From Kordia sp. (lineage in GTDB: Bacteria; Bacteroidota; Bacteroidia; Flavobacteriales; Flavobacteriaceae), in assembly GCA_002733415.1 (NCBI GenBank), contig NVVR01000004.1:1-64000 (forward strand): 64,000 nt of DNA, given 5' to 3'. Numbering within the stretch: position 1 is the stretch's first letter; each line of letters opens with the position of its first letter. Both the position numbers and the translations under genes were made by a program. Below, in pieces: positions 45,471 through 63,440 of the stretch. The notes beneath the pieces are model-generated. The model ran no database searches and was not told the DNA's origin. It worked only from the letters and a program-made list of their open reading frames with translations.

Positions 45471-45497
45471 AATAGGGTGGTTTGTTTTTTTGCTGTC
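45471..45497 (+). promoter_or_regulatory. ECF-type promoter AATAGGGTR-N13-CTGTC, copy 1
   Basis: AATAGGGTG (45471-45479), 13 bp, CTGTC (45493-45497). The same two boxes with the same 13-bp spacing occur at 47826, 57819 and 61640. The ATG of the downstream gene is 28 nt away. I infer recognition by the ECF sigma factor encoded at 57245-57766. Confidence 0.7.
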
Positions 45498-45524
45498 TAT
45501 AGAATAGAAAACAAAAGTAAACAC

Positions 45525-47753
45525 ATGAAAAAAACGTTAATCGTATTGGTACTTGTGATATCTCAGATATTAATAACTCAAGTGCAAGCACAATCTTTCA
45601 ATTATCAAGCAGTAGTTAGAGATATCTCTAATGCTCTAGTTGTAAACCAATCCATAGGAGTTCAGTTAAAAATAATAGAAGGCAGTCCTACAGGTACAAT
45701 TGTATATACCGAAAGACATTCCTTTATTTCTAATGCATATGGAGTTATTAGTCTGTCAATAGGTACAGGTACTACGACAGATAATTTTTCTACTATTGAT
45801 TGGTCTACACAAAATTATTGGTTAAATATAGGTGTGGATATTACAGGAGGAACAACCTATGTCATTATGGGAACATCAAAATTACAACAAGTTCCTTATG
45901 CTATGTATGCACATAGTAGTGGGGATAAAGCTTTTTCGACAATAGCTAGTGTAACGAGTAACGCACCAGGAACTATTGCAATAGATGATTTTGTATTTGG
46001 AAGTACGCAATTGGCTAATGATAACGGAACTTCCGACGATGACTTCAGGATGTTTTTTGATAAAAGTAAAGGGGCATTTAGAGCAGGAATTTCACCACAA
46101 AACACTTGGGATGATGTTAATGTAGGAATAAATTCTGCAGCATTTGGTAATCAAACTATTGCAAGTAATTTTCAATCTTTTGCCGCAGGAGCATTCAATA
46201 CTGCTTCTGGTTCTACTTCAACCGTTTTTGGGAATCAAAATATAGTTTCAGGGGATTCAGGATTTGCAACTGGAGAACATTTGACTTCTGAAGCTCGAAA
46301 TCAAGTTTCATTAGGATATTATAATACACCTGTAGCTGGTACTGCTACAGGTGTAGTTGCTACAGATAGATTATTAGTAGTTGGTAATGGAACATTTTCA
46401 AATAGAAGTGATGCTTTTGTTATGTTAAAAAACGGAAATACAACTTTAAACGGTTCTTTAACAATAGATTCTGATAATCAAGGAGTAGGAAAAGCGTATA
46501 CCTTACCAGCGCAAGACGGTGCTGCAAATCAAGTAATGACTACCAATGGTTCTGGGGCGGTGAGTTGGACTGATACTGCTGCACTGTCAGGAGCTTTTTC
46601 TACAACAAATAATGTAACGAGTAATGCTCCAGGAACAATGGCTACGGATGATTTTGTTTTTGGTAGTACACAGCTAGACAGGGACACTGCTACTCCTGAT
46701 AATCATAGCAGATTTTTCTTTAATAAATCCAAAAGTGCTTTTAGAGCAGGATATGGAAATACAACTAATTGGGATGATGTGAATATTGGAGATGGTTCTA
46801 CAGCTTTTGGTTGGAATTCTATAGCAAGTGGTAATGGTTCTTTTTCAACAGGATCATTTAACGAGTCATCTGGACGTTACGCTACATCGTTTGGACAGTC
46901 TAATATTGCTGGTGGTGTAAATTCTTTTGCATCTGGAGCTATCGTGACTGCTGAAAGTTTTGCACAAACTTCGATAGGAATGTATAGTACAGTAGAAACA
47001 GGTAATGCGAATACCTATGTAACTACTGATCGTTTATTTGTCATTGGTAATGGTACAGGAAATGCTGCTAGAAGTAATGCCTTAACTGTTTTAAAAAATG
47101 GAAACACAACCTTAAATGGTCAATTAACTATAGATGGAGATAATCAAGGGGCAGGAACACCATATACTTTACCTGCTCAAGGAGGAACAAATGGTCAATT
47201 ATTAGGGGTTTCAGCTTTGGGGGTACAGTGGTTAGATGCTGATGAAGTAGTGCCAGATATTACAAACCTAAATAATACGAGTATCACAACAACAGCTTTA
47301 ACAGTAACAAACTTACCAACATTCTCTGCCAATATTATTACAGGAATGGCTGTTAGCAGCGCAGGTTGGACAAAAGCCAGTGAGACATGGCGAACAAGTG
47401 GAACGTCTGGCTTGCATAATAATGGAAGCTATTTTAATATTGGAACAGGTGATTTTACGGCTCCAGTAGATGGTTTTTACATGTTCTCTGCCCAGGTTAG
47501 AATTGACGGAATGAATACGGGGTATGTGCGATTACTAATTGCAATTAATAATAATACAGATGTTAATAATGGTTTGCATGCCATAAGAAATTCGGAGACT
47601 GCATCTGCTTCTTTTGATACGATGAGTGTAAGCGGAGTTGTTCAGTTATCTGCAGGAGATACCGTTTCAATTTATATTCAGAGTAGCTCTGATACATCAT
47701 TTACAATTCAAGGAGAATCTGGGTTTAATGGGTATTTAGTGAGTAGATTATAA
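45525..47753 (+). CDS. Repeat-rich surface protein ('FNYQAVVRD' type) with C1q-like head
   Basis: 742 residues from the ATG at 45525; an upstream in-frame ATG lies before the promoter and cannot be used. Signal peptide to QVQAQ, then the same N-terminal domain as the 34091 protein (FNYQAVVRDISNALV, GTIVYTERHSF). Two long repeats of about 220 residues follow (VTSNAPGTIAIDDFVFGSTQ at 142 and its copy at 363), each with YadA-head-like STAFG/SFATG motifs. The last 140 residues look like a C1q/TNF-like trimer domain (FTAPVDGFYMFSAQVRI, LSAGDTVSIYIQSS). A fibre-forming surface protein is likely. Confidence 0.75.
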   Translation: MKKTLIVLVLVISQILITQVQAQSFNYQAVVRDISNALVVNQSIGVQLKIIEGSPTGTIVYTERHSFISNAYGVISLSIGTGTTTDNFSTIDWSTQNYWLNIGVDITGGTTYVIMGTSKLQQVPYAMYAHSSGDKAFSTIASVTSNAPGTIAIDDFVFGSTQLANDNGTSDDDFRMFFDKSKGAFRAGISPQNTWDDVNVGINSAAFGNQTIASNFQSFAAGAFNTASGSTSTVFGNQNIVSGDSGFATGEHLTSEARNQVSLGYYNTPVAGTATGVVATDRLLVVGNGTFSNRSDAFVMLKNGNTTLNGSLTIDSDNQGVGKAYTLPAQDGAANQVMTTNGSGAVSWTDTAALSGAFSTTNNVTSNAPGTMATDDFVFGSTQLDRDTATPDNHSRFFFNKSKSAFRAGYGNTTNWDDVNIGDGSTAFGWNSIASGNGSFSTGSFNESSGRYATSFGQSNIAGGVNSFASGAIVTAESFAQTSIGMYSTVETGNANTYVTTDRLFVIGNGTGNAARSNALTVLKNGNTTLNGQLTIDGDNQGAGTPYTLPAQGGTNGQLLGVSALGVQWLDADEVVPDITNLNNTSITTTALTVTNLPTFSANIITGMAVSSAGWTKASETWRTSGTSGLHNNGSYFNIGTGDFTAPVDGFYMFSAQVRIDGMNTGYVRLLIAINNNTDVNNGLHAIRNSETASASFDTMSVSGVVQLSAGDTVSIYIQSSSDTSFTIQGESGFNGYLVSRL

Positions 47754-47760
47754 AAACGAT

Positions 47761-47825
47761 AAAGAAGGCTAAAAAATAGGGATTTTTTGATTTGCTTATT
47801 AAAGCGTTACAAGCCTTCTTTTTTT
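47761..47825 (+). terminator. Terminator of the 45525 gene
   Basis: AAGAAGGCT pairs with AGCCTTCTT across about 40 nt and runs into TTTTTTT. It ends one base before the ECF-type promoter of the next gene. Confidence 0.8.
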
Positions 47826-47852
47826 AATAGGGTAGATGGCAGATTGACTGTC
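47826..47852 (+). promoter_or_regulatory. ECF-type promoter AATAGGGTR-N13-CTGTC, copy 2
   Basis: AATAGGGTA (47826-47834), 13 bp (here not a T-run but GATGGCAGATTGA), CTGTC (47848-47852). The unrelated spacer shows that the two boxes themselves are conserved. The gene's ATG is 52 nt downstream. Confidence 0.7.
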
Positions 47853-47904
47853 TTATGTTAAGAATAGCATTATAAAAACAAAAATTAATTTGATAAGATT
47901 TATT

Positions 47905-50900
47905 ATGATAGAAAATTACAATTTTTCAAAAAAGGCAAACAGATACTTGAAGAATGTATGTATGTGTTTATTTTTTATGCAAGGGATGTTTGCTGTAGCA
48001 AACAATACACCAGCTACGGCATATCCTTTGTATCAAGACCAAACGATTAGTAGAACAAGTACTAGTAATATGGAGAATGATTATTATAAAATAGCAAAGG
48101 ACTTTAATATCACTTCTTTTAATTTAAATTACTCAGTAGGTGTAGCAATTCCTGTTTTAGAAAAAAGAGAAGGGAGTTACAGTGGTACTTTGATATCTAG
48201 TGTGGGGATTGCGAATGGGAATACGGATTTTAATTTAGATTATTCAGGGGGTAATTATTTCTATTTATTACGAGTTTATGAAGATGGCATAGGAGGCTAT
48301 ACCTATGCTATTACAGGGTTTAATCCTACTAGTTGTCCAACACCAACTGTTTTATCAGGAGTTAACGCTAGTTCTACTAATAATAGTGTCACGTTATCTG
48401 GCTTGTCAGGCTCCAATGCTACCAATCATTTGGTGGTAATAAGTGATACCAATAGTTTTACGGCTTATGGTGTTGAAGAAAATGCACCTGTATCTGTAGG
48501 AACTGTTTATGGTGGTTCTGGAGAGCAAATTGTATATGCAGGAGCCGCAGCAGGTGCTGGTGTTACCATTACTAATCTATCACCTTCTACAACTTATTAT
48601 ATACGTGTTTATGGTTATGATGTATGTACTGGTTTTTATGTTTATAATGGTGGAAATACCTTGCCTGAAACAACTTGTGTTATAGACCCAACAACCGCAA
48701 CAGCGATGTCTTTAGCCCCATCAGGATTAGGAAGTATACTTATTAATAGTATCTCAGGGGTTAATTTTAGTCATGGTGAAGAGAATGGGTATATTGTTAA
48801 AGCAAGTAGTACTACTAATAGTTTTTCAGTGCCAACAAACGGAGCTAGTTTACCAACAGCTACTACTGCATTTTTAGCAGACGATCAGGTAGTGTATGTA
48901 GGAACCTCTGATACTCCTGCTATAACAGTTTCAAATTTAACGGAGAATACAGAATATTTTTTTAAGGTATATAGTTATAGTTTGTGTGACGGAACGTATT
49001 ATATAGAAAATACGGGTTTTGAAACTTCTACTACTACTTGTGGTTTTCCATCAGATAATACTATTACTTATTTTCAACATCATGCGAATGATACTAATAG
49101 TGCAGAAATAGTTTCTTTTCATAATACAACCACTACTGATGGGTTATTGGTATATATAAACGATAGTAATAGTTTTACACACTCTTCAACCATGACAACT
49201 CTGCCAACGGTTGATACTAGTTGGAATGAAGCAGGGCAACAACTTATAGGGAATGCTACACTTTCTGGAGTAAACTATTTTCCAACTAATTTAAACCTAA
49301 ACACACAATATTATGTTAGAGCATATACCTATCAATTGTGTGACGGGGTATACCGTGTAAATACAACTACTACAGGAAATGTTAATTTTACAACCTGTAA
49401 TTTTTCAGAATCCTTAGCTTCTGCTCCTGTATTTGGAGTTTTGACAGATACTTCTATGGAGTTGAGTTCTTTTTCTCATTTAACTCCAACAGCTCCTGAA
49501 GTTTTACCAACGGGGTATATTGTAAAAATGAATACAGTAAACTCATTTACACCAAATGTAAATAAAACGGCTTTACCAACAGCAAACACAGTGTACGGTG
49601 GAGGTGAGCAAGTAATATATGCAGGTACAAGTATAAACCCTAATATAACTATTACAGGTTTATCTGCTAATACAGAATACTTTTTTACAATCTATGCTTA
49701 TTTTGATGGTTGTACAGGAATATTATACCAACAAACAGGCTATGAATTTTCAAAGTCTAACGATACTTCTTTAATAGATCCTACCATTACATTTACTGAT
49801 ATTGTAAAAAATTCAGGAGATCCTGATTTTAATTTAGCAGTAACGTCTAATTCTGCAGGAACGATATCTTATACTATTTTAAGTCAAACAGGATCAGGTA
49901 GCAGTTTAAGCGGTACCAATAATGAAACGGTCACTTTGGGAACTGCAGGAACGGTTAGTATCGAAGCTTCGCAAGTAGCAAATGGTATTTATAATTCTGG
50001 TAGTAAAACAATTACTTTAACCATTAATAAGATTGCACCAACAATAACATTTGATGAGTTTCTTGATATCGCTAGTATTCAAACTTATGATTTAACAAAT
50101 TATACTTCTAGTAATTCTTCAGGGGCCTTTTCTTATGAAATTATTGGTGATGCTTTAGGGTATAGTTTATCAGGAGCAAACAATGCTTCACTGAATTCGA
50201 TAGCTACTGCAGGTTCTTTTATTGTACGAGTTACTCAAGCTGAATCGGATAGTTATTTAGCGGGCCAAAAAGAGGCTATTTATGCATTTATTAATGATGG
50301 TTTAAATCCTAAAACTGATATAGCTATAGCTAATTTTGAGGATTTTTCTACAGACCCTTTGGTAGTTACCAATTTAGCAGCCTTTACAAGTACATATGCA
50401 AACCCTATCACATATTCTATAGAAGGGGCTAATCCTACCGGGTCTATTGTAGTTGGTAGTGCATTTACAGCAGGAACGCCAGGAACGCTAACGGTAAGAG
50501 CAACAACATCTGCCTCGAGTCCCTTATTTAATCAAACTATTAAAGATATTACAGTAACTATTCTTGGTACACCACAAACAATTACATTTAATGCCTTAGC
50601 AGATGTTAATGAGGGAGGTCCGAATTTTAATTTAACTGCTACAGCAAGTTCAGGATTAACAGTTACTTATGTAAGTTTAGATACCAATGTAGCCACAGTT
50701 TCAGGAAATACCGTTACTATTGTAGGGCAAGGAACTACAAATATTACTGCAAGCCAAGATGGTAATGCTACGTATGGTGCAGCTCCAGATGTGGTACAAC
50801 CTTTAACGGTAAACCCATTGGTTATTACTGATCAAACGGTTTCGGTGAGTCCTACTTCTGGATTGTGTAGTGTTGATGCTGTAGTTTCTTTAGATTCTTC

Positions 50901-52797
50901 TCAATCAGGAGCAGATTATTACTTAAGAGACGATGCAGATAATAATATCATTGAGGGGCCAATATCAGGCACTGGTAGTGGATTTAGTTTTGGAACGGAT
51001 GCTATTACAGCTAATAAAACGTATAATACCTACGCTGTAGTATCGGGTAAAGAAATGAATGCATTTCAGTTTGACGGAGTAGACGGTTATTTATCGGTAC
51101 CGAATTTGAGTCCTCAAATTACAGGAAATGCCATTACGGTAGAAGCAAGGGTGTATATCCCCTCTTCTGATGATGCGGACCAACTAACCTCATTAATTAC
51201 ACAAGAATACAATGGCGTAGGTGATGGTGCTAAAATAAAGTACCAGTTGTCTATTGCTAATGGATTGTTAATTGCAGGATTTCACAGTCCGGGTTGGACA
51301 TGGACTTCTGGTATTGCTTATCCAAAAGACCAATGGATCCATGTGGCTTCTACTTACGACCAAAATACCATTAGAGTATATATTAATGGGGTTGAGGTAC
51401 AATCCCTAGCATCTACAGCAGTTTTACCTACGGGTAATACCTTAGGTTGGCGTATTGGTAGAAGGTGGGATTTTACACAAACAAGTCCTCATATTTTTGG
51501 TGGAGTAATGACAGATATGCGTGTTTGGAATACAACACGTTCGGCTGCTGAAATTTTAGCAAATAAGAATGTAACAATAGCATCGGCAACAGATTTAATA
51601 GCGAGTTATACCTTTAACGATGGAACTGGAATGACTGTTAAAGACTATTCTGGAAATAACCTAGATGCGACTTTAGTTGATTTAGTTGGAGATACTACTA
51701 ATTGGATACCCAATAATGGATTGGAAATGAGTAATACTCCAGCAGTTACGGTTACACCTATTGCAGATCAAGTTGTTTCATTAGTTCAGCCAGACACACA
51801 ATCAGCAACCATTTCTATTGATAATTCGCAAGTTGGGGTAAATTATACGTTGAGAGATCATGCAGACAATAGTGTAATTGAAGGGCCAATAGCAGGAACA
51901 GGTAGTGGAATTGTATTTGCAACAGAAGCAATTACAGCTGATAAAACCTATAATGTGTATGCTGAAGTTAGTACTTGTAATTTACAATTGACAAATACAC
52001 CTATAGCTATTTTTGATAAAGTAGTAGTTAGCCCAATAGTTTATTTGCAAGGAGCGACATTAAACCCTAATACAGGAGAAGAAACATTAATGCGAGATGA
52101 TTTACGAGTTGCTGGAGTAATTCCTACAACAAGTCCTTATGCAGATGCTTTAGTATGTAACGCTAGTGTGTTTATTCCTACTGGAGCTAATGCTATAGTT
52201 GACTGGGTATTTGTAGAACTAAGGGACGAAACAACTAACACAACTATAATAGCATCAAAATCGGCATTATTACAACGTGATGGAGATGTAGTAGCTACAG
52301 ATGGTACGTCCCCTTTAAATTTTGCAAGAGCTGGCGGGAATTATTATGTAGTTATTAAGCACCGTGGGCATTTAGGTATTATGTCATCTAGTGCCTTTAC
52401 TTTATCAAGTACCACTACTTCAGTAGATTTTACTGATAGTACTAGTCAAATTACGTATGGTAGTAATGCTCAAACGAGCTTCGGAATGTTTAGTGGAAAA
52501 GTAGGAATGTGGGCTGGAAATGTTGGAGGAGACATTTCTGTAAGGTATTTAGGTTCAGGAAATGATACCAATAGCCTTAAAGATACTGTATTAGCTGATG
52601 TAGGGAATACTACTAGTAGTAATTTATATTCCTTTATAGGTTATAGTGTAGGAGATGTTAATTTAGATGGAACCGTACGTTATCAAGGGTCAGGAAATGA
52701 TACTAATACGATTAAAGATATCATGTTAGCACATCCTGATAATCAAGGTTCGCCATCAAACTTGTTTATTATACAGGAACAATTACCAGAAAACTAA
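47905..52797 (+). CDS. Giant secreted adhesin: fibronectin-like repeats, LamG domain, C-terminal dockerin-like module, copy 2
   Basis: About 1630 residues from the ATG at 47905; a TTG five codons earlier is possible. After a signal peptide (MCLFFMQGMFAVAN) comes a pre-domain with YLLRVYEDGIGGYTYAI. Four fibronectin-type-III-like repeats follow, each ending like LSPSTTYYIRVYGY (about 150-610). Then come cadherin/Ig-like repeats with ITFDEFLDI and ITFNALADVNEGGPNFNL (about 620-960). A LamG-type concanavalin domain (about 1055-1245) shows FQFDGVDGYLSVPNL, WIHVASTYDQNTIRVYINGV and MTDMRVWNTTRSAAE. The last 245 residues are the shared EF-hand-like module (DDLRVAGVIPTTSP, GDVNLDGTVRYQGSGNDTN, ending LPEN). 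A substrate- or cell-binding role is inferred. No T9SS domain. Confidence 0.8.
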   Translation: MIENYNFSKKANRYLKNVCMCLFFMQGMFAVANNTPATAYPLYQDQTISRTSTSNMENDYYKIAKDFNITSFNLNYSVGVAIPVLEKREGSYSGTLISSVGIANGNTDFNLDYSGGNYFYLLRVYEDGIGGYTYAITGFNPTSCPTPTVLSGVNASSTNNSVTLSGLSGSNATNHLVVISDTNSFTAYGVEENAPVSVGTVYGGSGEQIVYAGAAAGAGVTITNLSPSTTYYIRVYGYDVCTGFYVYNGGNTLPETTCVIDPTTATAMSLAPSGLGSILINSISGVNFSHGEENGYIVKASSTTNSFSVPTNGASLPTATTAFLADDQVVYVGTSDTPAITVSNLTENTEYFFKVYSYSLCDGTYYIENTGFETSTTTCGFPSDNTITYFQHHANDTNSAEIVSFHNTTTTDGLLVYINDSNSFTHSSTMTTLPTVDTSWNEAGQQLIGNATLSGVNYFPTNLNLNTQYYVRAYTYQLCDGVYRVNTTTTGNVNFTTCNFSESLASAPVFGVLTDTSMELSSFSHLTPTAPEVLPTGYIVKMNTVNSFTPNVNKTALPTANTVYGGGEQVIYAGTSINPNITITGLSANTEYFFTIYAYFDGCTGILYQQTGYEFSKSNDTSLIDPTITFTDIVKNSGDPDFNLAVTSNSAGTISYTILSQTGSGSSLSGTNNETVTLGTAGTVSIEASQVANGIYNSGSKTITLTINKIAPTITFDEFLDIASIQTYDLTNYTSSNSSGAFSYEIIGDALGYSLSGANNASLNSIATAGSFIVRVTQAESDSYLAGQKEAIYAFINDGLNPKTDIAIANFEDFSTDPLVVTNLAAFTSTYANPITYSIEGANPTGSIVVGSAFTAGTPGTLTVRATTSASSPLFNQTIKDITVTILGTPQTITFNALADVNEGGPNFNLTATASSGLTVTYVSLDTNVATVSGNTVTIVGQGTTNITASQDGNATYGAAPDVVQPLTVNPLVITDQTVSVSPTSGLCSVDAVVSLDSSQSGADYYLRDDADNNIIEGPISGTGSGFSFGTDAITANKTYNTYAVVSGKEMNAFQFDGVDGYLSVPNLSPQITGNAITVEARVYIPSSDDADQLTSLITQEYNGVGDGAKIKYQLSIANGLLIAGFHSPGWTWTSGIAYPKDQWIHVASTYDQNTIRVYINGVEVQSLASTAVLPTGNTLGWRIGRRWDFTQTSPHIFGGVMTDMRVWNTTRSAAEILANKNVTIASATDLIASYTFNDGTGMTVKDYSGNNLDATLVDLVGDTTNWIPNNGLEMSNTPAVTVTPIADQVVSLVQPDTQSATISIDNSQVGVNYTLRDHADNSVIEGPIAGTGSGIVFATEAITADKTYNVYAEVSTCNLQLTNTPIAIFDKVVVSPIVYLQGATLNPNTGEETLMRDDLRVAGVIPTTSPYADALVCNASVFIPTGANAIVDWVFVELRDETTNTTIIASKSALLQRDGDVVATDGTSPLNFARAGGNYYVVIKHRGHLGIMSSSAFTLSSTTTSVDFTDSTSQITYGSNAQTSFGMFSGKVGMWAGNVGGDISVRYLGSGNDTNSLKDTVLADVGNTTSSNLYSFIGYSVGDVNLDGTVRYQGSGNDTNTIKDIMLAHPDNQGSPSNLFIIQEQLPEN

Positions 52798-52825
52798 ATC
52801 AAACACTTAATTTAAAACAAAAAAG

Positions 52826-53618
52826 ATAAAAAAATATTATATAATATTATTCCTTTTAGGACTAACATTTGGATTTAGTGCACAAAAAATGAATTATAGC
52901 TTGAGTCATATTGGGACTAATTCAGGAACAGGGAATTTAGAAATAGCTTTAGTAGCTACCCCAGATTTTACAGAAACATATGGAAACTCTGCTGATATGG
53001 GAGCAATAGTTTCCATTTCAGGAGGAGGATATTTATTACCAACTAATACTGGTTTTGTTAACGATTGTGTTTTTACTCCTCCAGCAACTAATGTTTGTGA
53101 TTATGCAATTCCTGCAACAGAATGGGATGCTACGTATTTAGCAGGTCCATCAGTAGTAAGTGGAGGACGATTTGTGTATCAGTTATTAAGAACTCCTGGT
53201 GTTACTAATGTACTTTTTGATGCTGTTAGTGGTACTCCAATAATTATGGCAGTTTTCCAAGTAACCGGGAACCTTACTTCTGGATACATTGTTTTGTTAG
53301 AAAATACTGACCCAAATGAAAATTATTTAAATATTAATTATGCTATAGCAACAGGAGGAAGTACTGCAGATGTAATTGGAGTAGTAGATACAACACTGAG
53401 ATTATTTTCAGTATTAAATACTCCGGAGTTTGAGTTAAAAGGAGTAAAGGTATTTTCTAATCCAACAAAAGATGTTGTTTAGTATCGCTGATCAACGAGT
53501 ACAGTATATTGAAAATGCAACTGAACTTGTAGATATAAGCGTTTTACAAGCTGGAGTTTGCTTCATGAGAATAACTACGAAAAATGGATTTGCAATTAAG
53601 AAAATTGTAAAACAATAA
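52826..53618 (+). pseudogene. Broken T9SS-sorted partner protein, copy 2
   Basis: The best preserved of three copies. Read from 52826 the frame gives a signal peptide (ILFLLGLTFGFSAQK) after an ATA where ATG is expected. A domain of about 180 residues follows (MNYSLSHIGTNSGTGNLEIA, GGRFVYQLLRTPG, GTPIIMAVFQVTGN, GSTADVIGVVDTT). FELKGVKVFSNPTKDVV begins the T9SS domain, but a TAG stop and frameshift at about 53482 separate it from YIENATELVDISVLQAG and FAIKKIVKQ. Start-codon loss and frameshift together make it inactive, unless ATA or the internal ATG at 52889 is used. In shape the domain recalls a cohesin. Confidence 0.75.
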
Positions 53619-53645
53619 TATCTCTTCTCCTAAATTTACTTATTT

Positions 53646-53676
53646 AAAGGCTCAATTGTAATGATTGGGTCTTTTT
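53646..53676. terminator. Bidirectional terminator between converging genes
   Basis: AAAGGCTCAAT and ATTGGGTCTTT form an imperfect stem, with T on one strand and A on the other. A decayed relative (AAAGGCTCAATTTTATG) remains at 61550, after the third partner copy. Confidence 0.6.
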
Positions 53677-53693
53677 GTTGTGTAAGGTATTAA

Positions 53694-56255
53694 CTAAAAA
53701 AACAATCTAAAAGAAGCATTAGGAGTAAAACCTAATGAATAGCGCTGAATGACTTGTTTTAACTCTAAACTAAAATCCTCTTGGTCTGTTCTGTAGGTAA
53801 TAGAGATAGGTGTTCTTCTATTATAAATATTTAAAGCAGACAAACCAATTTGTGCTTTTGTTTTTCCTAATTCAAAACTATAAGTAGCTGAGGCATCTAG
53901 TCTATGATACGCCTTAAGTCTTTCACTGTTAATATTTCCAAAGGTAACCGCTAAATTAGTTGAATCTAAAGTAGTGATAGGAGTAAAAGGTTCTCCTGTT
54001 CTGTATTGCCACCCTAAAGAAAGTTTAAAATCATTCAGTTTTAAAGAGTTTGAGATTCTAAAGCTATGGGTAATGTCATTATTGCCAGAAAATGATTCGC
54101 TTTGAATAGCAGGGAATTTAAAATCAATGTCGTTATAAGTATATCCCATCCAAATACGGTAGTTATTTATGCGTTTTTTGAATAAGATGTCTATACCTTT
54201 TATAGTACTCTTTCCAGAAGATAATTCTAGTTGTGGCGTACTAAATCCGTTCGTAAAAGTTGTTAGTCCAGAAAGTTTTTTTAGATAGGCATCCGTGTCT
54301 ATAGTCCAACCATTTTTGTTAAATAAGAGTCCTACAGACACTTGATTACTTTTTAATAATGGGTAGTCATTGTTGTCAGATAATCGCCAAAGATTATTTT
54401 CTAATCTTAATTCTGTTTGGTTAAATTCTACCAACTGAGATATGGGTTGGTGTCTTCTTTCAGCACTAGTTTTTAGTAATAATTGCTTTTTAACTAAAGA
54501 AAATTCAGCACTTAATCTAGGCTCAAAATATAAATTTTCTAAACTTGAATAGTGTACAAACCTACTTCCGAAGCTAAAATATTTCAATAATTCACCACTG
54601 AATTGATATTCTCCCCATAAAACATTTTTCAAGTTTTTGCTGTCTAGAGGAAGGTTTTCGTTTTCTTCTGGTTCTAAAGGTTTTATTTTAGAGATTCCTA
54701 CTTCTAAATTGGTGTGAGAGACTTGGTAACCAAATGCATAAGAGTGTTTTTTATTGAGCTTTTTTCTAGAAGATATATCTAAACCAAATTCATTGATTTT
54801 ATTGGTTCTAGTGCTAATTTCTTCTAATGCCCCATTTTCAATTTCATCGTTAGTATAAAACGAATTGTAGCCGGAATAATACCCTTTAATTTCTTTTGTA
54901 CTGCTAGTACTACTTTTGTGTTTCCAATTAAAACTTAGTCCGTTATTCTGTGTGTATAAATCATCTATTTTAGTTTCACCTTCACTGGTAAATGAAAAAT
55001 CAAGTGTATTTTTAGTAAATAAGCTACTTACTATAAATTTGTTCTTTTCTGATGGCTCAAAAATAACTTTCGCATTAATATCATGAAATGAAAAATCGTT
55101 GGAGCTGGAGTTAACTGTAAATTCATCATCAGTTTCAATAGTCAAAAGATTACCGTGTATGTCTTTTACAATCCCTCCATTTCTGAATATTTTTTCAGCA
55201 TAGCTATTATAGGTAGGGCTCTTATAAACATCGGTATAAGAACGTCTGGCAAAAAAATAAACAGCTAATTTTTTAGAAACCGGTGTTTTTATATAACCAT
55301 CTATACTTAACCCGTCAAAACCAAAACCTGATTGGAATTTATTAGGAATTTCTTCTCCTGTAGAAATATCAATAATACCAGATATTCTATCACCATAAGC
55401 AGCACTAGTACCCGATTTGAATACACTAGCTTTTTGGGTAGCATACGGGTTGAATGCAGAAAACATTCCATAAAAATAACCTGAGCTGTACAGTTTTATA
55501 TCATCAAATAATATCAAGTTCTGGTCGGGAGACCCACCTCTAATTTGAATACCCGTAGCCGATTCGTCTAAGCTACTAATACCCGGAATTAACTGAATAC
55601 TTTGCATAATATCAGGACTTACTAATCCTGGTAGAATACCTAATGAATTACTAGTTACATCTATAGAACCATCTTTATTCCTGTCAATCCCTGTAGTTAT
55701 GTATCCAAAAAGTATAACTTGTTCTAGGGCCTTAGAGCTTTGTTGGGCATAAATAGGTGAACAGCTAGTATTTGCTGTAAATGCTATATTTTCATAACCG
55801 GATTGTTGTAAAACAAACTCGTTTGTAGTTGTTTTTTCTACTGAAAAATATCCTTTGGAATTGGTAGTAAATTGTTTCCCATTACTGTTGGTAAACAGAG
55901 CATACAATAATGGCTGTTTACTTATAGTATCTAATAGATAACCACATACGGTATTTTCTGGAGTATCTTTTCTTTTGGCAATAATGATTTGCTTTTCTGA
56001 TATTACTTTAAAAAATAATCCGGTTTGCGCCTCTAATGTATTTAAAAGTTCGGTGTACTCAACTTGTAAAAGTTCTAGTGTAATAAACTTACCTTCAATT
56101 ACATCTTTCGCATAAGAAAAAGATACCTTGTTTCTATATTGAATATCTTCAATTACCTCTAGTAATGGTGTTTCTAGATAAGTGTAATCTAAATTCTCCT
56201 GAGCATTCAGTTTAAAAGCGAATAATAAAATAATACAAAACAATACAAACCGCAT
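53694..56255 (-). CDS. TonB-dependent receptor with STN signalling domain (FecA-like transducer)
   Basis: 853 residues. Signal peptide (ILLFAFKLNAQ). Residues 22-95 form an STN-like domain (LLEVIEDIQYRNKVSFSYAK, QTGLFFKVISEKQIII), the part that touches the anti-sigma factor in FecA-type receptors. Residues 102-165 are a carboxypeptidase-regulatory-like beta domain. The plug follows (ILPGLVSPDIMQSIQLIPG, ATGIQIRGGSPDQNLILFDD) and then a 22-strand-type barrel ending SLGFTPNASFRLFF. It is the last gene of sigma-FecR-receptor. No SusD-like gene is near, so this is not a polysaccharide utilisation pair. The ligand is unknown. Confidence 0.88.
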   Translation of the reverse strand: MRFVLFCIILLFAFKLNAQENLDYTYLETPLLEVIEDIQYRNKVSFSYAKDVIEGKFITLELLQVEYTELLNTLEAQTGLFFKVISEKQIIIAKRKDTPENTVCGYLLDTISKQPLLYALFTNSNGKQFTTNSKGYFSVEKTTTNEFVLQQSGYENIAFTANTSCSPIYAQQSSKALEQVILFGYITTGIDRNKDGSIDVTSNSLGILPGLVSPDIMQSIQLIPGISSLDESATGIQIRGGSPDQNLILFDDIKLYSSGYFYGMFSAFNPYATQKASVFKSGTSAAYGDRISGIIDISTGEEIPNKFQSGFGFDGLSIDGYIKTPVSKKLAVYFFARRSYTDVYKSPTYNSYAEKIFRNGGIVKDIHGNLLTIETDDEFTVNSSSNDFSFHDINAKVIFEPSEKNKFIVSSLFTKNTLDFSFTSEGETKIDDLYTQNNGLSFNWKHKSSTSSTKEIKGYYSGYNSFYTNDEIENGALEEISTRTNKINEFGLDISSRKKLNKKHSYAFGYQVSHTNLEVGISKIKPLEPEENENLPLDSKNLKNVLWGEYQFSGELLKYFSFGSRFVHYSSLENLYFEPRLSAEFSLVKKQLLLKTSAERRHQPISQLVEFNQTELRLENNLWRLSDNNDYPLLKSNQVSVGLLFNKNGWTIDTDAYLKKLSGLTTFTNGFSTPQLELSSGKSTIKGIDILFKKRINNYRIWMGYTYNDIDFKFPAIQSESFSGNNDITHSFRISNSLKLNDFKLSLGWQYRTGEPFTPITTLDSTNLAVTFGNINSERLKAYHRLDASATYSFELGKTKAQIGLSALNIYNRRTPISITYRTDQEDFSLELKQVIQRYSLGFTPNASFRLFF

Positions 56256-56288
56256 ATACTCTTGGAATAAGATTAGCGCAAATGTACG

Positions 56289-57194
56289 TTATTCCGATAA
56301 AATTATGGTTTCATTGTTATTAGATATTTGGTATTGTACACCCATTGGCACTAAAGTAGCTTGTAAAGCTGTTTTTAGATTATCATGAGTAAAACGACCA
56401 CTAAACAGTCTGTTGGTGTTAATGTTTTCACTTTCAAATTCTATTGGGTAGTAGTTCATTAATTCATCTAATACAATGGATAATGATTGATTTTTAAAAA
56501 CAGAAACACCATTTTTCCAATCAGGGATTTGTTCAGAAAACACGCTTTCTTGCACAATATTTTCATCAATATTTACTTGCATACTTTTGGTTAACCGATA
56601 TCGTTTTTTACGACTATCAGCTACCGTTAATTGTACTTCTCCTTCGAAGCATTTTAAACTAAAGGTACTTTGATCTTTAATATTAAATTGAGTGCCTAAA
56701 ACCTGAACTATTCCTATGGAGGTTTGTACTGTAAAACCATTTCCTTTTGTAATGGTAAAATAAGCTTCTCCATTTAAAGTGACTCCTTTGTTAGTATCCC
56801 AGAAAAAACGTTTGTGTGATACACTAGAATTGGCATTTAGATTAATGATTGAACCATCTGCTAAAGTAACAGTTTGTGTTTCACCAATAGCTGTAGTATA
56901 GGTTTTAGAAGAATTTAAAAATAAGCCTAAACTAATAACAATAATTGCTGCAGAAGCCATACGCATTATTTGTTTCAAACGAATAACTTTTGGCTTTGTA
57001 TATAATTGTTGCTTAATTTTTAGTAATGCAGCTTCAGTGTCTATAGTAGGGCCTTCTAGTAATTGTGCTTCGGAATTAATAATAGTAAATTGCTTGAACT
57101 CCTTGGTTTTTTCAAATGCTATCCGCTCTTCCTTAGAGAGTTCTCCGGAAATCCATCTTCCTAAAAAAGTGTCATCTGTTTCGTAATTATTCAT
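56289..57194 (-). CDS. FecR-family anti-sigma factor
   Basis: 301 residues. The cytoplasmic N-terminus (FLGRWISGELSKEERIAFEK) should hold the sigma factor. A membrane helix lies at about 86-103 (MASAAIIVISLGLFLN). The periplasmic FecR domain (TVTLADGSIINLNANSSV, GEAYFTITKGNGFTVQ, VLGTQFNI) is followed by the C-terminal DUF4974-type secretin-like domain (IVLDELMNYYPIEFE, LFSGRFTHDNLKTAL), which meets the receptor's STN domain. It lies between the sigma and receptor genes and closes the relay. Confidence 0.92.
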   Translation of the reverse strand: MNNYETDDTFLGRWISGELSKEERIAFEKTKEFKQFTIINSEAQLLEGPTIDTEAALLKIKQQLYTKPKVIRLKQIMRMASAAIIVISLGLFLNSSKTYTTAIGETQTVTLADGSIINLNANSSVSHKRFFWDTNKGVTLNGEAYFTITKGNGFTVQTSIGIVQVLGTQFNIKDQSTFSLKCFEGEVQLTVADSRKKRYRLTKSMQVNIDENIVQESVFSEQIPDWKNGVSVFKNQSLSIVLDELMNYYPIEFESENINTNRLFSGRFTHDNLKTALQATLVPMGVQYQISNNNETIILSE

Positions 57195-57244
57195 AATAAT
57201 ATAGTCTCTTATTAATAAGACATTTAAAAATTAAATCACCCTAT

Positions 57245-57766
57245 TTATATTTTTATATGTTTCCCTAATAGCTCTTTTATGGCTTTTAAGGCAATGCTCA
57301 TTCTTCGTTCGATGGCTTTAACTGTAAGGCCAGTAATCTCAGCTATTTCCTTATAGGTCTTTTTTTCTATTCTACTTAGTAAAAAAACTTCACGTTCTTT
57401 AACTGATAAGCTATTAATAGCATTTTTTAGTTGTACTCTAAATTCGTCGACTTCAATTAAAAAATCGGGACTTTCATAATCTGTATGTTCTAAAACAGAT
57501 TGCTGGTGCTTTAAAACTACTTTTTGATGAGCTACCTCATTTAAGAATAAATTATTACATGCAGTATAGATGTATGATTTTGCTTTAGAAAAAGTAACAG
57601 TAGCGCATAACTTCCAAAGTTTTATAAAAACATTTTGAACTATATCTTCTGCTTGTTGTAGGCTACCACATTTGTAATAAATATATTTTGTAACAGGTTC
57701 ATATAAGTTACGAAACAATTGATTGTAGTTTTCTTCCTCACATATGGAAGGTTCTTTTTTTATCAT
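57245..57766 (-). CDS. ECF RNA polymerase sigma factor (FecI-like)
   Basis: 173 residues. Region 2 is YEPVTKYIYYKCGSLQQAED followed by IVQNVFIKLWK. Region 4 is INSLSVKEREVFLLSRIEKK with TYKEIAEITGLTVKAIERRM. These regions bind the -10 and -35 boxes respectively. It is first in the sigma-FecR-TonB receptor operon and is divergent from the adhesin-protease gene at 57885. The shared 118-bp gap carries the AATAGGGT/CTGTC promoter facing the adhesin. In the sigma direction TATTTTCG resembles a housekeeping -7 box, so the operon may be expressed constitutively. Confidence 0.93.
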   Translation of the reverse strand: MIKKEPSICEEENYNQLFRNLYEPVTKYIYYKCGSLQQAEDIVQNVFIKLWKLCATVTFSKAKSYIYTACNNLFLNEVAHQKVVLKHQQSVLEHTDYESPDFLIEVDEFRVQLKNAINSLSVKEREVFLLSRIEKKTYKEIAEITGLTVKAIERRMSIALKAIKELLGKHIKI

Positions 57767-57818
57767 CTTAAAAAAGGTAAGTCACGAAAATAGGCAAACT
57801 AAAAAAGAATTAAAAAAA

Positions 57819-57845
57819 AATAGGGTGTTTTATCTTTTTACTGTC
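57819..57845 (+). promoter_or_regulatory. ECF-type promoter AATAGGGTR-N13-CTGTC, copy 3
   Basis: AATAGGGTG (57819-57827), 13 bp, CTGTC (57841-57845); the ATG is 39 nt downstream. It lies between the sigma gene and the adhesin-protease gene, pointing at the latter. Confidence 0.7.
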
Positions 57846-57884
57846 TTAACTATAATTGACGGAATATAACAAGCAACCAAAATC

Positions 57885-60800
57885 ATGAAAAAAACTATTT
57901 TTTATTTTTTATCACTTTTTTCAATTTACTCTTTTTCTCAAATAACTGAGGTTAGTTTTGGAAATCGTGTTTCACAATCACAAGTTATTATTGAAGGTAA
58001 AATACTTAATCAAAGATCATTTTGGGATAACAACAAGCACAATATCTATACAGCTAGTGAAATAGAAATATATAAAGTCTTTAAAGGTCGTGTTAATACC
58101 CAAACACTTGAGATAATTACACCAGGTGGAACAGTTGGATTAAAAAAAGAAATTGTTCAACCTAGCTTAGCCCTTTCAATGAATGATGTTGGAGTTTTTA
58201 TGCTTAAAACTAATCCTATAGCAATTGCTAATCCTAAAAAATTATCTCAATTTAAGCCTTGTGCAAGTTTGCAAGGTTTTATTAAGTACAATTTAGCTCA
58301 AGATAAAGCTACAGGTCCATTCGATACATTTAATTCTATAGAAAAACAATTGTATAAATCGATTACAAGGCTAACAAAAAAATCAATTATCGAGTTGAGA
58401 CAATTTTCTTTAGATTTTCAAAAAAAAACAAGCAACAATAACTCATTAATGGCGCCAACAATTAGTAGTTTTAGCCCAACAACTATTTCTGCTGGAACTA
58501 ATAGTCAACTAACTATTAATGGTACTGGTTTTGAAGCTACAATTGGAACAGTAGGTTTCTCAAACACAAATGACGGTGGTGCTTCCTTTGTAACTACATT
58601 GCCCACTGAAATTATTTCTTGGTCAGATACTACTATCGTTGTTGAAGTTCCTGATAATGCAGGAACAGGTACTATTGAAGTTACTACTGCTGGATTAAGC
58701 TCGAACATTAGCACTCAAACATTGAATGTATCCTATGCTCAACTCAATGTTGATTGGGATACTGGTTCGGGCATTTATTATTCATACCAAACACAGCACG
58801 TTAACGATAATGCTACAGGTGGATACACTTGGGAAATGAATACTGAGTTTGCATCAAATGCAAATGCAGTCGATGCTTTTAATAGAGGATTTAATAATTG
58901 GATTTGTGAAACAAATATTAACTGGGAAGTTTCTGCAACAACTACAGCCGTAGATCTTATTACCGATGATGGTATAAATATTATTAGATTTGATAATGGA
59001 GCTGAACTTCCTGGTGGGGTTTTAGGTAGAAGTCACTCTCGTTATAGTGGCTGTATTGTTTCTGGGGTTGATATTGATTGGTATGTATATGAAATAGATA
59101 TTAACTTTGATGATGCTACGAATTGGAACTTCAGTAATTCTCTTCCTGGTTTTACTGAATATGATTTTGAAACAATAGTACTTCATGAACTAGGTCACGG
59201 TCATCAAGAAGGGCATGTTATAGACACGAATGAATTGATGCATTATTCTATTTCAAATGGAGAGAGTAATAGAATCATAGGTGTAAATGATATCATTAAT
59301 GGAAATGATATTATGCTTCGAAATACTACTACTCCTATTTGTTCACAAGCTGCAATGATTCGTTTTCCTGGTCCAGAAATTGATATACAAGGAAATGGTG
59401 TTTCTATTCTGAGTGGCGATACTACACCTGATATAGCTGATGAGACCGATTTTGGTGATGTAAATGTTTCGGAAAACAATGCACATATCTTTACCATAGA
59501 CAATACTACAGGAACAGTAGATTTAACCATTAGTTCTATTGTTTCTAGCGGAACAAACTTTGGTGATTTTGTAGTAAGTAATGTACCTGCTATTGTAACT
59601 GCAGGTGGAACAAATACCTTTACAGTAACTTTTACTCCTAGTACTACTGGCACTAGAACTGCAACCATAACGATAAACAATGATGATTGTAACGAAGGTA
59701 TTTATGATTTTGCAGTACAAGGATATGGAAGTGAGTCAATCTGTAATAGATATGGTCAAGTTACAGGAGACGTTGCAGGAAGTTCTTCAGAAGATTTCTT
59801 AATGGGTCAAAAACACACAGCCAATACATCTAATTATGTTACTTCTTTAGGGATAAATTCTCTAGCTACAGGAGTTCAGGTTATAATAGCTCTTTATAAC
59901 GATAATGCTGGAGCTCCTGGCACGTTAATTACACAAAGTGCAAGTACAGCTCTTATCATTGGGGATAATATTATTGATGTCCCAAATGTATTTATTAACT
60001 CAGGAGATTATTGGATTATGAAAGTTCTAGATACTAGTTCCACTCCTTTTTCGGAATCGAGCACAGGAGGAGGGGCAACCACATACTATACAGCGCTAAC
60101 TTTTGGATCTGCTTTGCCTACTAACTTTACTGGAAGTAATTATGGTTCTGCAGGGATTTTCACAACATGGATGGAACTTTGTTCAGTTCCAGAAATAGAT
60201 GTTATTGGTAATGCTATTTCAATTGCAGATAGTGATACAACACCAGATGTAGCAGACGACACCGATTTTGGTAATATAGATATAGAGTCAAATGATGTAC
60301 ATACTTTTACTATAGACAATACAGCAGGTACATTAGATTTAACCATTACTTCTATTGTTTCTAGCGGAACAAACTCTAGTGATTTTGTAATAGGTAATGT
60401 TCCTGCTACAGTAACAGCTGGTGGAACAGATACCTTTACAGTAACGTTTACTCCTAGTGCTGCAGGAACAAGAACAGCAACCATAACCATAAATAATGAT
60501 GATGCAGACGAAGGTATTTATGATTTTGCTATACAAGGAAATGGTCTGGCTTCTATTTTATTAAGCCCTATTGTATATTTACAAGGTGCTTTTATAAACC
60601 CAAATGCTGGTGAAGAAACGTTAATGCGTGATGATTTACGGACAGCAGGATTCATATCAACAATAAGCCCTTATATAGATGGAGCAACTTGTTATTCATC
60701 TGTATTTACAACAACAGGGAATAATGCAATTGTAGATTGGATTTGGGTAGAATTACGTGATGCGAGTACTAATACAACAATTCTACATAGTCAATCTGCT

Positions 60801-61331
60801 TTATTGCAACGCGATGGGGATGTGGTAGCTATAGATGGTACTGGAACTTTAAATTTTAATGCAGCAGCAGGTAATTATTATGTAGCTATAAAGCATCGTA
60901 ATCATTTAGGAATGATGTCTGCTAATACAGTTGCATTGTCGGATGCTATAACTATTTTAAACTTTACAGATGCTGCTAGTCAAATAACATACGGAACCAA
61001 CGCTCAAACAGTATATGGAATGCCAACAGGTAAAGTGGGTATGTGGGCAGGAAATGCAGATGGAAATTCTCAGATTAGATATCAAGGTTCAGGAAATGAT
61101 ACTAATACCATTAAAGATAAAGTGCTAGCTGATGCAGGAAACTCATCAAATAGTAACTTATATTCCTTTACGGCTTATAATACTGCTGATGTTAATTTAA
61201 ATGGAACAACACGTTATCAAGGTTCAGGAAATGATTCTAATACGATTAAGGATATCATATTAGGACATCCCAATAATCAAAGTTCACCATCAAATTTATT
61301 TATTATATTAGAGCAATTACCAGAAAATTAA
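57885..61331 (+). CDS. Secreted zinc metalloprotease-adhesin with C-terminal dockerin-like module, copy 3
   Basis: 1148 residues. Signal peptide (FLSLFSIYSFSQ). An N-terminal domain (about 20-130, IYKVFKGRVNTQTLEII) is followed by an IPT/TIG domain (about 190-280, PTISSFSPTTISAG, VVEVPDNAGTGTIEVTT). The catalytic domain (about 285-500) has HELGHGHQEGH at about 433-443, the HExxHxxxxxH zinc site of metzincin-type proteases, and a Met-turn-like NELMHYS. Two repeats of about 105 residues, separated by a jelly-roll-like stretch, carry HIFTIDNTTGTVDLTISSI and TFTVTFTPSTTGTRTATITI (choice-of-anchor-D type). The shared 245-residue EF-hand-like module ends the protein (LPEN). It should cleave extracellular protein at the cell surface. 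Confidence 0.82.
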   Translation: MKKTIFYFLSLFSIYSFSQITEVSFGNRVSQSQVIIEGKILNQRSFWDNNKHNIYTASEIEIYKVFKGRVNTQTLEIITPGGTVGLKKEIVQPSLALSMNDVGVFMLKTNPIAIANPKKLSQFKPCASLQGFIKYNLAQDKATGPFDTFNSIEKQLYKSITRLTKKSIIELRQFSLDFQKKTSNNNSLMAPTISSFSPTTISAGTNSQLTINGTGFEATIGTVGFSNTNDGGASFVTTLPTEIISWSDTTIVVEVPDNAGTGTIEVTTAGLSSNISTQTLNVSYAQLNVDWDTGSGIYYSYQTQHVNDNATGGYTWEMNTEFASNANAVDAFNRGFNNWICETNINWEVSATTTAVDLITDDGINIIRFDNGAELPGGVLGRSHSRYSGCIVSGVDIDWYVYEIDINFDDATNWNFSNSLPGFTEYDFETIVLHELGHGHQEGHVIDTNELMHYSISNGESNRIIGVNDIINGNDIMLRNTTTPICSQAAMIRFPGPEIDIQGNGVSILSGDTTPDIADETDFGDVNVSENNAHIFTIDNTTGTVDLTISSIVSSGTNFGDFVVSNVPAIVTAGGTNTFTVTFTPSTTGTRTATITINNDDCNEGIYDFAVQGYGSESICNRYGQVTGDVAGSSSEDFLMGQKHTANTSNYVTSLGINSLATGVQVIIALYNDNAGAPGTLITQSASTALIIGDNIIDVPNVFINSGDYWIMKVLDTSSTPFSESSTGGGATTYYTALTFGSALPTNFTGSNYGSAGIFTTWMELCSVPEIDVIGNAISIADSDTTPDVADDTDFGNIDIESNDVHTFTIDNTAGTLDLTITSIVSSGTNSSDFVIGNVPATVTAGGTDTFTVTFTPSAAGTRTATITINNDDADEGIYDFAIQGNGLASILLSPIVYLQGAFINPNAGEETLMRDDLRTAGFISTISPYIDGATCYSSVFTTTGNNAIVDWIWVELRDASTNTTILHSQSALLQRDGDVVAIDGTGTLNFNAAAGNYYVAIKHRNHLGMMSANTVALSDAITILNFTDAASQITYGTNAQTVYGMPTGKVGMWAGNADGNSQIRYQGSGNDTNTIKDKVLADAGNSSNSNLYSFTAYNTADVNLNGTTRYQGSGNDSNTIKDIILGHPNNQSSPSNLFIILEQLPEN

Positions 61332-61352
61332 ATCAATAATTAAAAGAAAAAA

Positions 61353-61532
61353 ATGAATTATATCTTAAATCATATTGGAACTAATTCAGGAACAGGAAAC
61401 CTAGAAATTGGCTTAGTAGCTACTCCTGATTTTACAGAAACCAATGGAAACTCTGTTGATATGGGAACGGTAATTTCTATATTTGGTGGAGGATATTTTT
61501 TGAATGATAAAAGAGTAACGAACTATTATTAA
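61353..61532 (+). pseudogene. Truncated partner protein, copy 3
   Basis: 59 codons (MNYILNHIGTNSGTGNLEIG, TPDFTETNGNSVDMG) match the start of the mature domain of the partner at 52889. The frame then leaves the homology at GGGYFLNDKR and stops. Signal peptide, the rest of the domain and the T9SS signal are gone. What follows to 61640 is only a remnant of the terminator region. Confidence 0.75.
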
Positions 61533-61639
61533 TAATAAGCAACTTATAAAGGCTCAATTTTATGTTTTGTTGACCCAACCTTTTTTATTAAAAGGAAATA
61601 AGTAATATATGGGTATGAAACTCATTTTTAAAAATATTA

Positions 61640-61666
61640 AATAGGGTGTTTCTTTTTTTTACTGTC
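61640..61666 (+). promoter_or_regulatory. ECF-type promoter AATAGGGTR-N13-CTGTC, copy 4
   Basis: AATAGGGTG (61640-61648), 13 bp, CTGTC (61662-61666). The nearest gene start is 61803, 136 nt downstream, longer than at the other copies, so a small gene or leader could have been lost between. The gap 61667-61802 shows no ORF. Confidence 0.6.
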
Positions 61667-61802
61667 ATTAATATAGATGATGTAGTTTTTAAGTTGTCTA
61701 TATAGTAGAATAAAATAGGGTTATTTCATTGTTAGCTTGGTTTTAAAGAAGAAGTACTATAATAGTATAGAAGAAAGAAGAGTATTAATATAAAAATTAA
61801 AT

Positions 61803-62249
61803 ATGATAAATAAAGTTATAATCTGTACACTTTTGATGCTAGTTACCAGTTTTTGTTTTTCACAAGATTGGATTAAAAATATAAACGAAGCAAAAGAATT
61901 AGCTATGAAGAATGATAAGCCAATTCTTTTGGTTTTCTCAGGGTCAGATTGGTGTGCACCATGTATGAAGTTAGAGAAACAAGTTTTCAGTACAGAGGAA
62001 TTTAGACAATACGCTACAGAAAATTATGTCCTTCTAAAAGCTGACTTTCCACAACGTAAAAAGAATAAATTACCTGAAGCGCAACAAACACACAATAATC
62101 AACTTGCTGAGGAATATAATAAAAACGGATTTTTCCCCTTAGTAGTAGTATTAAATAGCAAAGGAAAATCGTTAGGTAGTATAGGCTATGAAAAGGTGTC
62201 AGCTAATAACTATATTGAAAAAATTAACAAATTTGTGAAGCAGATATGA
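61803..62249 (+). CDS. Periplasmic thioredoxin-like protein
   Basis: 148 residues with a signal peptide (LLMLVTSFCFSQ). The thioredoxin active site is WCAPC (about residues 52-56) in KPILLVFSGSDWCAPCMKLE, followed by the cis-Pro region FFPLVVVLNSKGK. It acts as a disulfide reductase or isomerase in the periplasm. It overlaps the ApbE gene by 4 nt (ATGA) and heads a thioredoxin-ApbE-DUF4266-DUF3570 operon. Confidence 0.85.
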   Translation: MINKVIICTLLMLVTSFCFSQDWIKNINEAKELAMKNDKPILLVFSGSDWCAPCMKLEKQVFSTEEFRQYATENYVLLKADFPQRKKNKLPEAQQTHNNQLAEEYNKNGFFPLVVVLNSKGKSLGSIGYEKVSANNYIEKINKFVKQI

Positions 62250-63226: not shown

Positions 63227-63440
63227 AATTAGAACTAACTTTTTACTAGCAATGATTCTTGTATTTGTAATGAGCTCATGTGTTGTAGTGAAGGAATATG
63301 AAAAAGTATATGTAAATGATGCTGACATGAAATTAACAGCCAATAAAATTAATAAATTCGAAACTAATTTTCAAGTATACCGCGAAGCTGCATCTGGGGC
63401 AAACGGAGGGAAAGCTGGTGGAGGTTGTGGTTGTAATTAA
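63213..63440 (+). CDS. DUF4266 lipoprotein
   Basis: 75 residues. Lipoprotein signal (LLAMILVFVMSSC, lipobox SSC), then VVVKEYEKVYVNDADMKL, and the C-terminal Gly/Cys tail GGKAGGGCGCN that marks DUF4266. It occurs with DUF3570 and ApbE in many Bacteroidota and Proteobacteria. The function is unknown; the Cys-rich end may bind metal or lipid. It overlaps ApbE at the 5' end. Confidence 0.85.
   Translation: MKLNKIRTNFLLAMILVFVMSSCVVVKEYEKVYVNDADMKLTANKINKFETNFQVYREAASGANGGKAGGGCGCN

Follow-up and report, generated by a model that had tools for sequence, protein, structure and literature searches.

What could place a set of surface-protein genes and a redox operon under common control in a Kordia species? 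The question is raised by a stretch of 64,000 nucleotides from Kordia sp. (positions 1 to 64,000 of contig NVVR01000004.1, assembly GCA_002733415.1), referred to below as the window, in which a sequence-only reading had described a two-box element, AATAGGGTR-N13-CTGTC, at four sites and interpreted it as the promoter of an extracytoplasmic function (ECF) sigma regulon. The element was found here in five copies. These are very probably promoters, with AATAGGGT as the -35 box, TGTC as the -10 box and a fixed spacing, of an ECF sigma factor (gene at 57245-57766) that appears to work within a cell-surface-signalling system.

All four copies described earlier are exact, with 13 bp between the boxes, and the remark that the spacer of one of them (47826) is not T-rich also proved correct. 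These candidate sites lie on the forward strand and are each directed at the next gene: 45471-45497 precedes a trimeric-fibre-like adhesin gene (ATG at 45525), 47826-47852 the gene for a surface protein of 1630 residues (ATG at 47905), 57819-57845, divergent from the sigma gene, the gene for a protein of 1148 residues (57885), and 61640-61666 a Trx-ApbE-DUF4266-DUF3570 operon (61803). The fifth candidate site, which had been overlooked, lies on the reverse strand (57219-57245) between the sigma gene and fecR, towards fecR and the receptor gene; it starts on the sigma stop codon, ends 24 bp from the fecR ATG (57194) and differs from the earlier pattern by one base, ATGTC for CTGTC. The distances from box start to ATG are, in the order given, 54, 79, 66, 163 and 51 bp. 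With AATAGGGT-N15-TGTC as the core pattern scored, the window contains five exact matches versus 0.01 expected from dinucleotide shuffles of the window (n=100), none of which reached five. Since the motif was chosen from the same sequence, these statistics alone are circular, and the comparative tests provide the independent evidence. Loose matching was at chance level, so that only near-exact copies are informative: with three mismatches allowed, 6 matches were found in the window versus 6.93 expected; a loose search gave no excess (198+163 matches versus 187+169 for the control); and matches with one mismatch to a shorter core were about as frequent as the control in each of the four genomes scanned. 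The source genome (3.72 Mb, 97 contigs, 90% complete) contains a single further exact copy (C75:33303), in coding DNA inside a long frame on the opposite strand, and a loose TGTA candidate (C1:187347) that overlaps a small frame at its end and points at no nearby gene. ECF promoters in general have the layout GGGT, about 16 bp, GTC, and the sites here resemble it. A bipartite sequence of fixed spacing ahead of the target genes, as is characteristic of an ECF regulon, is thus present.

Is the motif kept where the sigma factor is kept? A search of 298 genomes of the family yielded three close sigma orthologues, 75-82% identical, each with both sites beside the sigma gene. Scanning genome contigs raised the number of loci to 25, the first three orthologues among them, in Lacinutrix, Flavivirga, Kordia, Winogradskyella, Psychroserpens, Bizionia, Aureisphaera and other genera, including three Tenacibaculum loci at 58-60% identity. 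In the close clade (the TGTC clade; 23 loci with the window counted in), a near-identical site precedes fecR in 23/23 loci, and the divergent site is present in 22/23, so that the comparison at orthologous sigma genes proposed by the sequence-only reading finds the motif at the same two places. When dyads were counted over both intergenic places with no motif preset, the TAGGG-N16-TGTC registers ranked first among shared dyads (17/23 divergent, 22/23 before fecR); A-rich dyads reached up to 18 when the divergent set was taken by itself. Sites ahead of adhesin homologues occupy the same place at L109, L115, L117, L122, L173 and L174. The spacer has diverged: among its 15 positions in 49 distinct target sites, 12 carry less than 0.9 bit and three carry 1.0-1.3 bits, the spacer being the only informative part of this profile because the box letters were preset by the search pattern. 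The earlier description of two boxes at a fixed spacing stands, with the boxes better given as AATAGGGT and TGTC, since C precedes TGTC at 30/49 target sites and at only 2/23 fecR sites, where A predominates (18/23; Fisher 2.6e-5). This difference may set different promoter strengths at fecR and at the target genes.

The operon provides a test of whether the motif goes with the sigma factor or with the genes behind it. At loci with an orthologous sigma, the Trx-ApbE operon carries the site in 18/18 cases (16 TGTC, 2 TGTA). For comparison, DUF4266 was found in 56/149 genomes of the family, and 55 of the 57 listed places were fetched, the two left out being already covered. From these 55 control loci, L274 was dropped for having no ApbE match, two with a linked sigma were set apart, and L238 ends at trx, leaving 51 testable operons "without linked sigma", that is, with none within the 6-14 kb fetched; where trx was not found (three loci), the stretch ahead of ApbE was used. 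TAGGG-N16-TGT stands no more than 300 bp from trx in only 1/51, against 18/18 with the sigma (Fisher 1e-15, kinship ignored). In the two loci set apart, whose sigmas are 37% and 46% identical, one site was found 288 bp off and the other locus has none. The possibility that the motif is a property of the operon itself was accordingly rejected: the operon has the site with the sigma and rarely without it, and the motif goes with the sigma.

The same pattern was also sought, with the reversed pattern as control, in 22 further genomes, of which 19 have a TGTC-clade sigma and three are of Tenacibaculum. There were 65 exact sites versus 7 for the control, a result that, together with the orthologous loci, supports the interpretation as an ECF sigma regulon; four of the 22 genomes, that of L125 and the three of Tenacibaculum, have no exact site. 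As classified by hand, 53/65 sites stand ahead of fecR, of the Trx-ApbE operon, of genes for adhesins or further surface or secreted proteins, or of a linked gene resembling helix-turn-helix (HTH) regulators. These comprise 17 sites before fecR, 13 before the trx operon (one a truncated copy), 9 before adhesins like that of the window, 5 before relatives of the window's two giant proteins, 3 before small relatives of the gene at 42517-44352 and 6 before other proteins of 355-1122 residues, some with sorting domains of the type IX secretion system (T9SS). Sites away from the sigma locus lie 49-75 bp before adhesin or surface-protein homologues at L171, L172, L174, L175 and L177, as does the nearer site of L173. 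At this last locus, from an uncultured Bizionia, two exact sites (L173:1001 and L173:1158) stand in tandem, 157 bp apart, ahead of one adhesin gene.

Which proteins would read the sites and relay a signal to them? The sigma factor (57245-57766, reverse strand, 173 residues) matches Sigma70_r2 (8.5e-9) and Sigma70_r4_2 (7.8e-15), with regions 2 and 4 as the only matches, as in ECF (group IV) sigma factors; its match to TIGR02985 (1.3e-33, 116.5 bits) is under the cut-off of 126.4. The adjoining gene (56289-57194, reverse strand) encodes a FecR-type membrane anti-sigma factor (Pfam FecR 2.4e-17, FecR_C 4.8e-7), an arrangement known from cell-surface signalling of the FecI/FecR/FecA type. It is followed by a TonB-dependent receptor or transducer (53694-56255, reverse strand; Pfam Plug) with an STN-like N-terminal signalling domain at residues 22-94. 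Pfam detected STN (E up to 1) in 13/20 receptors scanned, at best with 4.9e-8, and an AlphaFold model of the window's receptor has an STN-type fold at residues 22-94, where the predicted local distance difference test (pLDDT) is about 82-90. Foldseek with this model returned TonB-dependent transporters, a Bacteroides B12 transporter at the top and FpvA and FoxA among the first ten; with an overall pLDDT of 64.8 and top template modelling (TM) scores of 0.36-0.43 by query length, the model pointed to no ligand. Ahead of the sigma gene and in its direction, the ECF-type motif was not seen in an upstream alignment of 21 printed rows, from which L124 and L125 were left out. In 18/21 rows, an exact TAnnTTTG was found by eye near this place; in this phylum it is the -7 element of housekeeping promoters (PMC9723704, PMC7366714). 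The window is among the other 3, having TATTTTCG at 57785-57792 (reverse strand), with one mismatch. The sigma is therefore probably made without the motif, from a housekeeping promoter.

Several observations weigh against this account. TGTA replaces TGTC at four orthologous sites (the divergent sites of L119 and L121, and both sites of L125), the fecR site of L110 reads AATAGGGG, and the divergent site is missing at L124. Among the 65 exact sites, 6 are inside frames of at least 200 codons and 6 have no clear target. The trx site of the window is 163 bp from its ATG, farther than in relatives. Pfam, even with E 1 allowed, did not detect STN in the window's own receptor, and the domain is called STN-like on the strength of the orthologues and of a model of modest confidence. 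As a separate observation, a second AATAGGGT at 61714-61721, closer to the trx start than the exact site, has no TGTC at the proper distance and is perhaps a decayed promoter.

Could another reader, or no reader at all, account for the sites? The genome encodes three paralogous ECF sigmas (C49, C61 and C66), and one of these might read the sites, alone or together with the 57245-57766 sigma. TAGGG-N16-TGT, or nearly that sequence, is common to all of them, and paralogues so close could cross-talk. Beside paralogous sigmas, which are 44-57% identical, a related site occupies the same places, mostly GTAGGGT with TGTT at every counted site. The fourth -10 base is T in 47/47 sites beside 26 paralogues and in 0/45 beside the TGTC clade, where it is C in 41 and A in 4, and this difference makes reading by a paralogue quite improbable. 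Three paralogues with no site (L052, L055 and L057) were left out of this class comparison, and the counting pattern does not cover the fecR sites of L034 (CGTT) or of the three Tenacibaculum loci (GGTA). At paralogous sigma loci of the source genome (L311, L312 and L313), frames of 796-855 codons follow in the place of the receptor, with TGTT sites nearby.

The motif might instead be the operator of a DNA-binding repressor or activator. Short bipartite sites upstream of genes would suit such a protein, and so would the relatives of the 42517-44352 gene linked to several of the loci, three of which are behind a site and one of which, the short relative at L110, has a LuxR-type HTH. An operator is nevertheless very improbable, as the site is non-palindromic, is directed at the next gene, keeps its spacing at all counted sites and is tied to the sigma gene in 23/23 loci, and as one of its bases changes with the sigma class, which is not expected of an operator. 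That the four sites first described are passengers of a recent gene duplication, with no regulatory meaning, has a practically negligible chance. The window does contain duplicates, at 52.26-53.03 kb and 60.79-61.50 kb, 76-84% identical, but the duplicated stretches do not include the sites, the spacers and flanks differ between the copies, and in other genera the same sites precede unrelated genes, with conserved boxes and diverged spacers. Promoters of the 57245-57766 sigma remain the preferred reading.

The paralogous classes suggest how such closely similar promoters might be told apart. The base before TAGGG is A in 45/45 TGTC-clade sites and G in 44/47 paralogue sites, and the residue at sigma position 154 (R or K) tracks this A or G. 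Tenacibaculum has A as the fourth -10 base (TGTA at the divergent site, GGTA before fecR), and in the tree the TGTC clade groups with Tenacibaculum (100/99). In twenty sigma columns, the C class differs from the T class with no more than one exception, and 2 of 173 positions separate all three classes: position 53 has L in the C class, N or H in the T class and K in the A class, and position 56 has T or S in the C class, K or N in the T class and E in the A class. By alignment, both are at or beside the specificity loop, which reads the DNA. In Mycobacterium sigma-H, a -10 base is flipped into this loop (PMC6411747), and, by homology to sigma-H and the alignment, the fourth base here is probably the flipped one. 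It is possible, as a tentative proposal, that paralogous flavobacterial ECF sigmas share the -35 core TAGGGT and are separated by a readable code in residues 53/56 and 154. Residues 53/56, at the specificity loop of region 2, would set the fourth base of TGT[C/T/A] (C with L and T or S, T with N and K, A with K and E). Residue 154 of the region-4 helix (R or K) would determine the base ahead of TAGGG (A or G, respectively); a few paired changes in evolution would then yield orthogonal promoters. If the code holds, swapping the residues should switch promoter choice. L125 runs counter to it, having TGTA at both sites together with C-class loop residues, and was kept apart from the class comparison; the basis is three lineages, of which the Tenacibaculum class is one, made up of three close relatives.

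For the promoters of the 57245-57766 sigma, we infer the following circuit. Its housekeeping promoter would supply the sigma, and FecR, as the anti-sigma factor, would hold it back. Upon ligand binding by the TonB-dependent transducer (53694-56255), FecR would release the sigma or be degraded. This step is borrowed from Pseudomonas FoxA, the signalling domain of which shields the anti-sigma factor from proteolysis in the absence of a signal (PMC11637429). The freed sigma would start five transcription units: fecR with the receptor gene, the trimeric-fibre-like adhesin, the two giant surface proteins and the Trx-ApbE-DUF4266-DUF3570 redox operon. The first of these would act as feedback, giving more brake and more sensor and no extra sigma, and one outside signal would probably switch on all five units together.

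How does this arrangement compare with known systems? It is like FecI-FecR-FecA of Escherichia coli and the Fpv and Fox systems of Pseudomonas in co-encoding an ECF sigma, a FecR-type anti-sigma and a TonB-dependent transducer, and the alignment of the receptor model with FpvA and FoxA adds to the likeness with the latter two, though its top match lies elsewhere. Unlike in all of these, the predicted targets do not serve uptake of the ligand but consist of surface proteins and a redox operon. The sigma is probably not autoregulated, as is the case for fecIR (PMC9249621); unlike in E. coli, where fecI and fecR form one mRNA (PMC9249621), a predicted sigma-type promoter separates the two genes here. 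The feedback layout proposed is that of the haem-signalling system HasI-HasS-HasR, in which HasI drives its own anti-sigma gene hasS and hasI is not autoregulated (PMC9249621). Ligand class and targets differ, and the available part of that article mentions no redox operon or adhesins. The operon comprises the same four genes as the Thioredoxin-ApbE-DUF4266-DUF3570 flavinylation cluster (eLife 2021, PMC8238504), for which a Chlorobium DUF3570 protein was shown to be an ApbE substrate (PMC8238504); the main text of that article, as available, does not contain the word sigma, whereas the operon here has a linked ECF promoter beside the sigma that is rare elsewhere. In Bacteroides thetaiotaomicron, non-canonical -30/-10 promoters were linked to the ECF sigmas SigW-1 and SigH-1 (PMC12596196). 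The SigW-1 promoters have TGTT near -10, like the paralogous class here, although the motif search there was not significant, and TGTC or TGTA with AATAGGGT is not mentioned for B. thetaiotaomicron in the portion available (PMC12596196). Surface signalling and ECF promoters have been described before, and so has the flavinylation cluster. In titles and abstract openings of literature on DUF4266/DUF3570, on Bacteroidetes or Flavobacterium ECF promoters and on FecR with adhesins, this regulon was not found; a predicted motif for the ECF group of this sigma may already be part of the main ECF classification.

The genes behind the sites encode the following proteins, all on the forward strand. The adhesin (45525-47753) has C1q at its C end (Pfam 1.4e-9) and a weak YadA_head match (0.0045, under cut-off). 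Its N end is weakly like the mosaic adhesive trimer (MAT) fibres of Bdellovibrio (PMC10769870), and membership of that family is not claimed: the match to the NCBIfam model Bdello_MAT_N (NF053851) has 2.2e-7 and 30.8 bits against a curated cut-off of 60, and the N ends of 5/5 adhesins tested match weakly, at best with 38 bits, all under cut-off. The 1630-residue protein (47905-52797), probably secreted, has fn3 and Laminin_G_3 matches. The 1148-residue protein (57885-61331), also probably secreted, has TIG, two choice-of-anchor D domains and a metzincin-like zinc site, HELGHGHQEGH (Peptidase_M10 2.9e-4, under cut-off). The flavinylation cluster is complete, with an exported thioredoxin-like protein (61803-62249; Thioredoxin_7 5.7e-16), the ApbE flavin transferase (62246-63226; 1.1e-84), a small CXC protein of DUF4266 (63213-63440; 7.4e-19) and the start of DUF3570 (63498-64000; the full gene, L107:498-1760, runs on to contig position 64760 and matches PF12094 at 2.8e-36).

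Both giant proteins end in a shared C-terminal module of 263 residues, with no NCBIfam match. It recurs at 36583-37575 and in C16, C45, C49 and C82 of the source genome, often ending in EQLPEN or EQLPEGAN, and was found in 16/26 genomes, with 8 copies in the source genome (one of them not listed) and 33 matches in one Kordia genome. The sequence-only reading had proposed to check whether hits of a genome-wide scan lie before genes with this module. The scan did place most hits before regulon-type genes and few in coding frames, but the module was rejected as a mark of the regulon, only 2/8 copies in the source genome being behind a site. Not even TAGGG-N16-TGT was found at the presumed starts of four module genes there (1.2-1.4 kb each), and no site was found for the window's copy at 36.8 kb. 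The duplicated stretches (52259-53034 and 60793-61498) cover the module and the start of the next small gene, the second copy of which seems a mere fragment. The first copy (52889-53620), after the 1630-residue protein, ends at a sorting-tail-like end and seems to resume in another frame, which may reflect a disrupted gene or an error in the sequence. The gene at 42517-44352 encodes a protein resembling tetratricopeptide repeat (TPR) proteins, and its relatives recur beside orthologous sigma loci, either with 500-620 residues or short (108-152 residues). The short relatives behind a site are those of L110, L111 and L129, of which that of L110 was the one tested for its HTH type.

What would the regulon mean for the biology of the family? 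It would give a precise, testable promoter for an ECF system of Flavobacteriaceae, in which few alternative-sigma promoters are reported in the literature seen. An uncharacterised flavinylated redox operon would be tied to adhesive surface proteins under one signal, which offers a lead to the functions of both. The paralogous classes, in turn, would represent a natural experiment in how ECF promoter choice changes without cross-talk.

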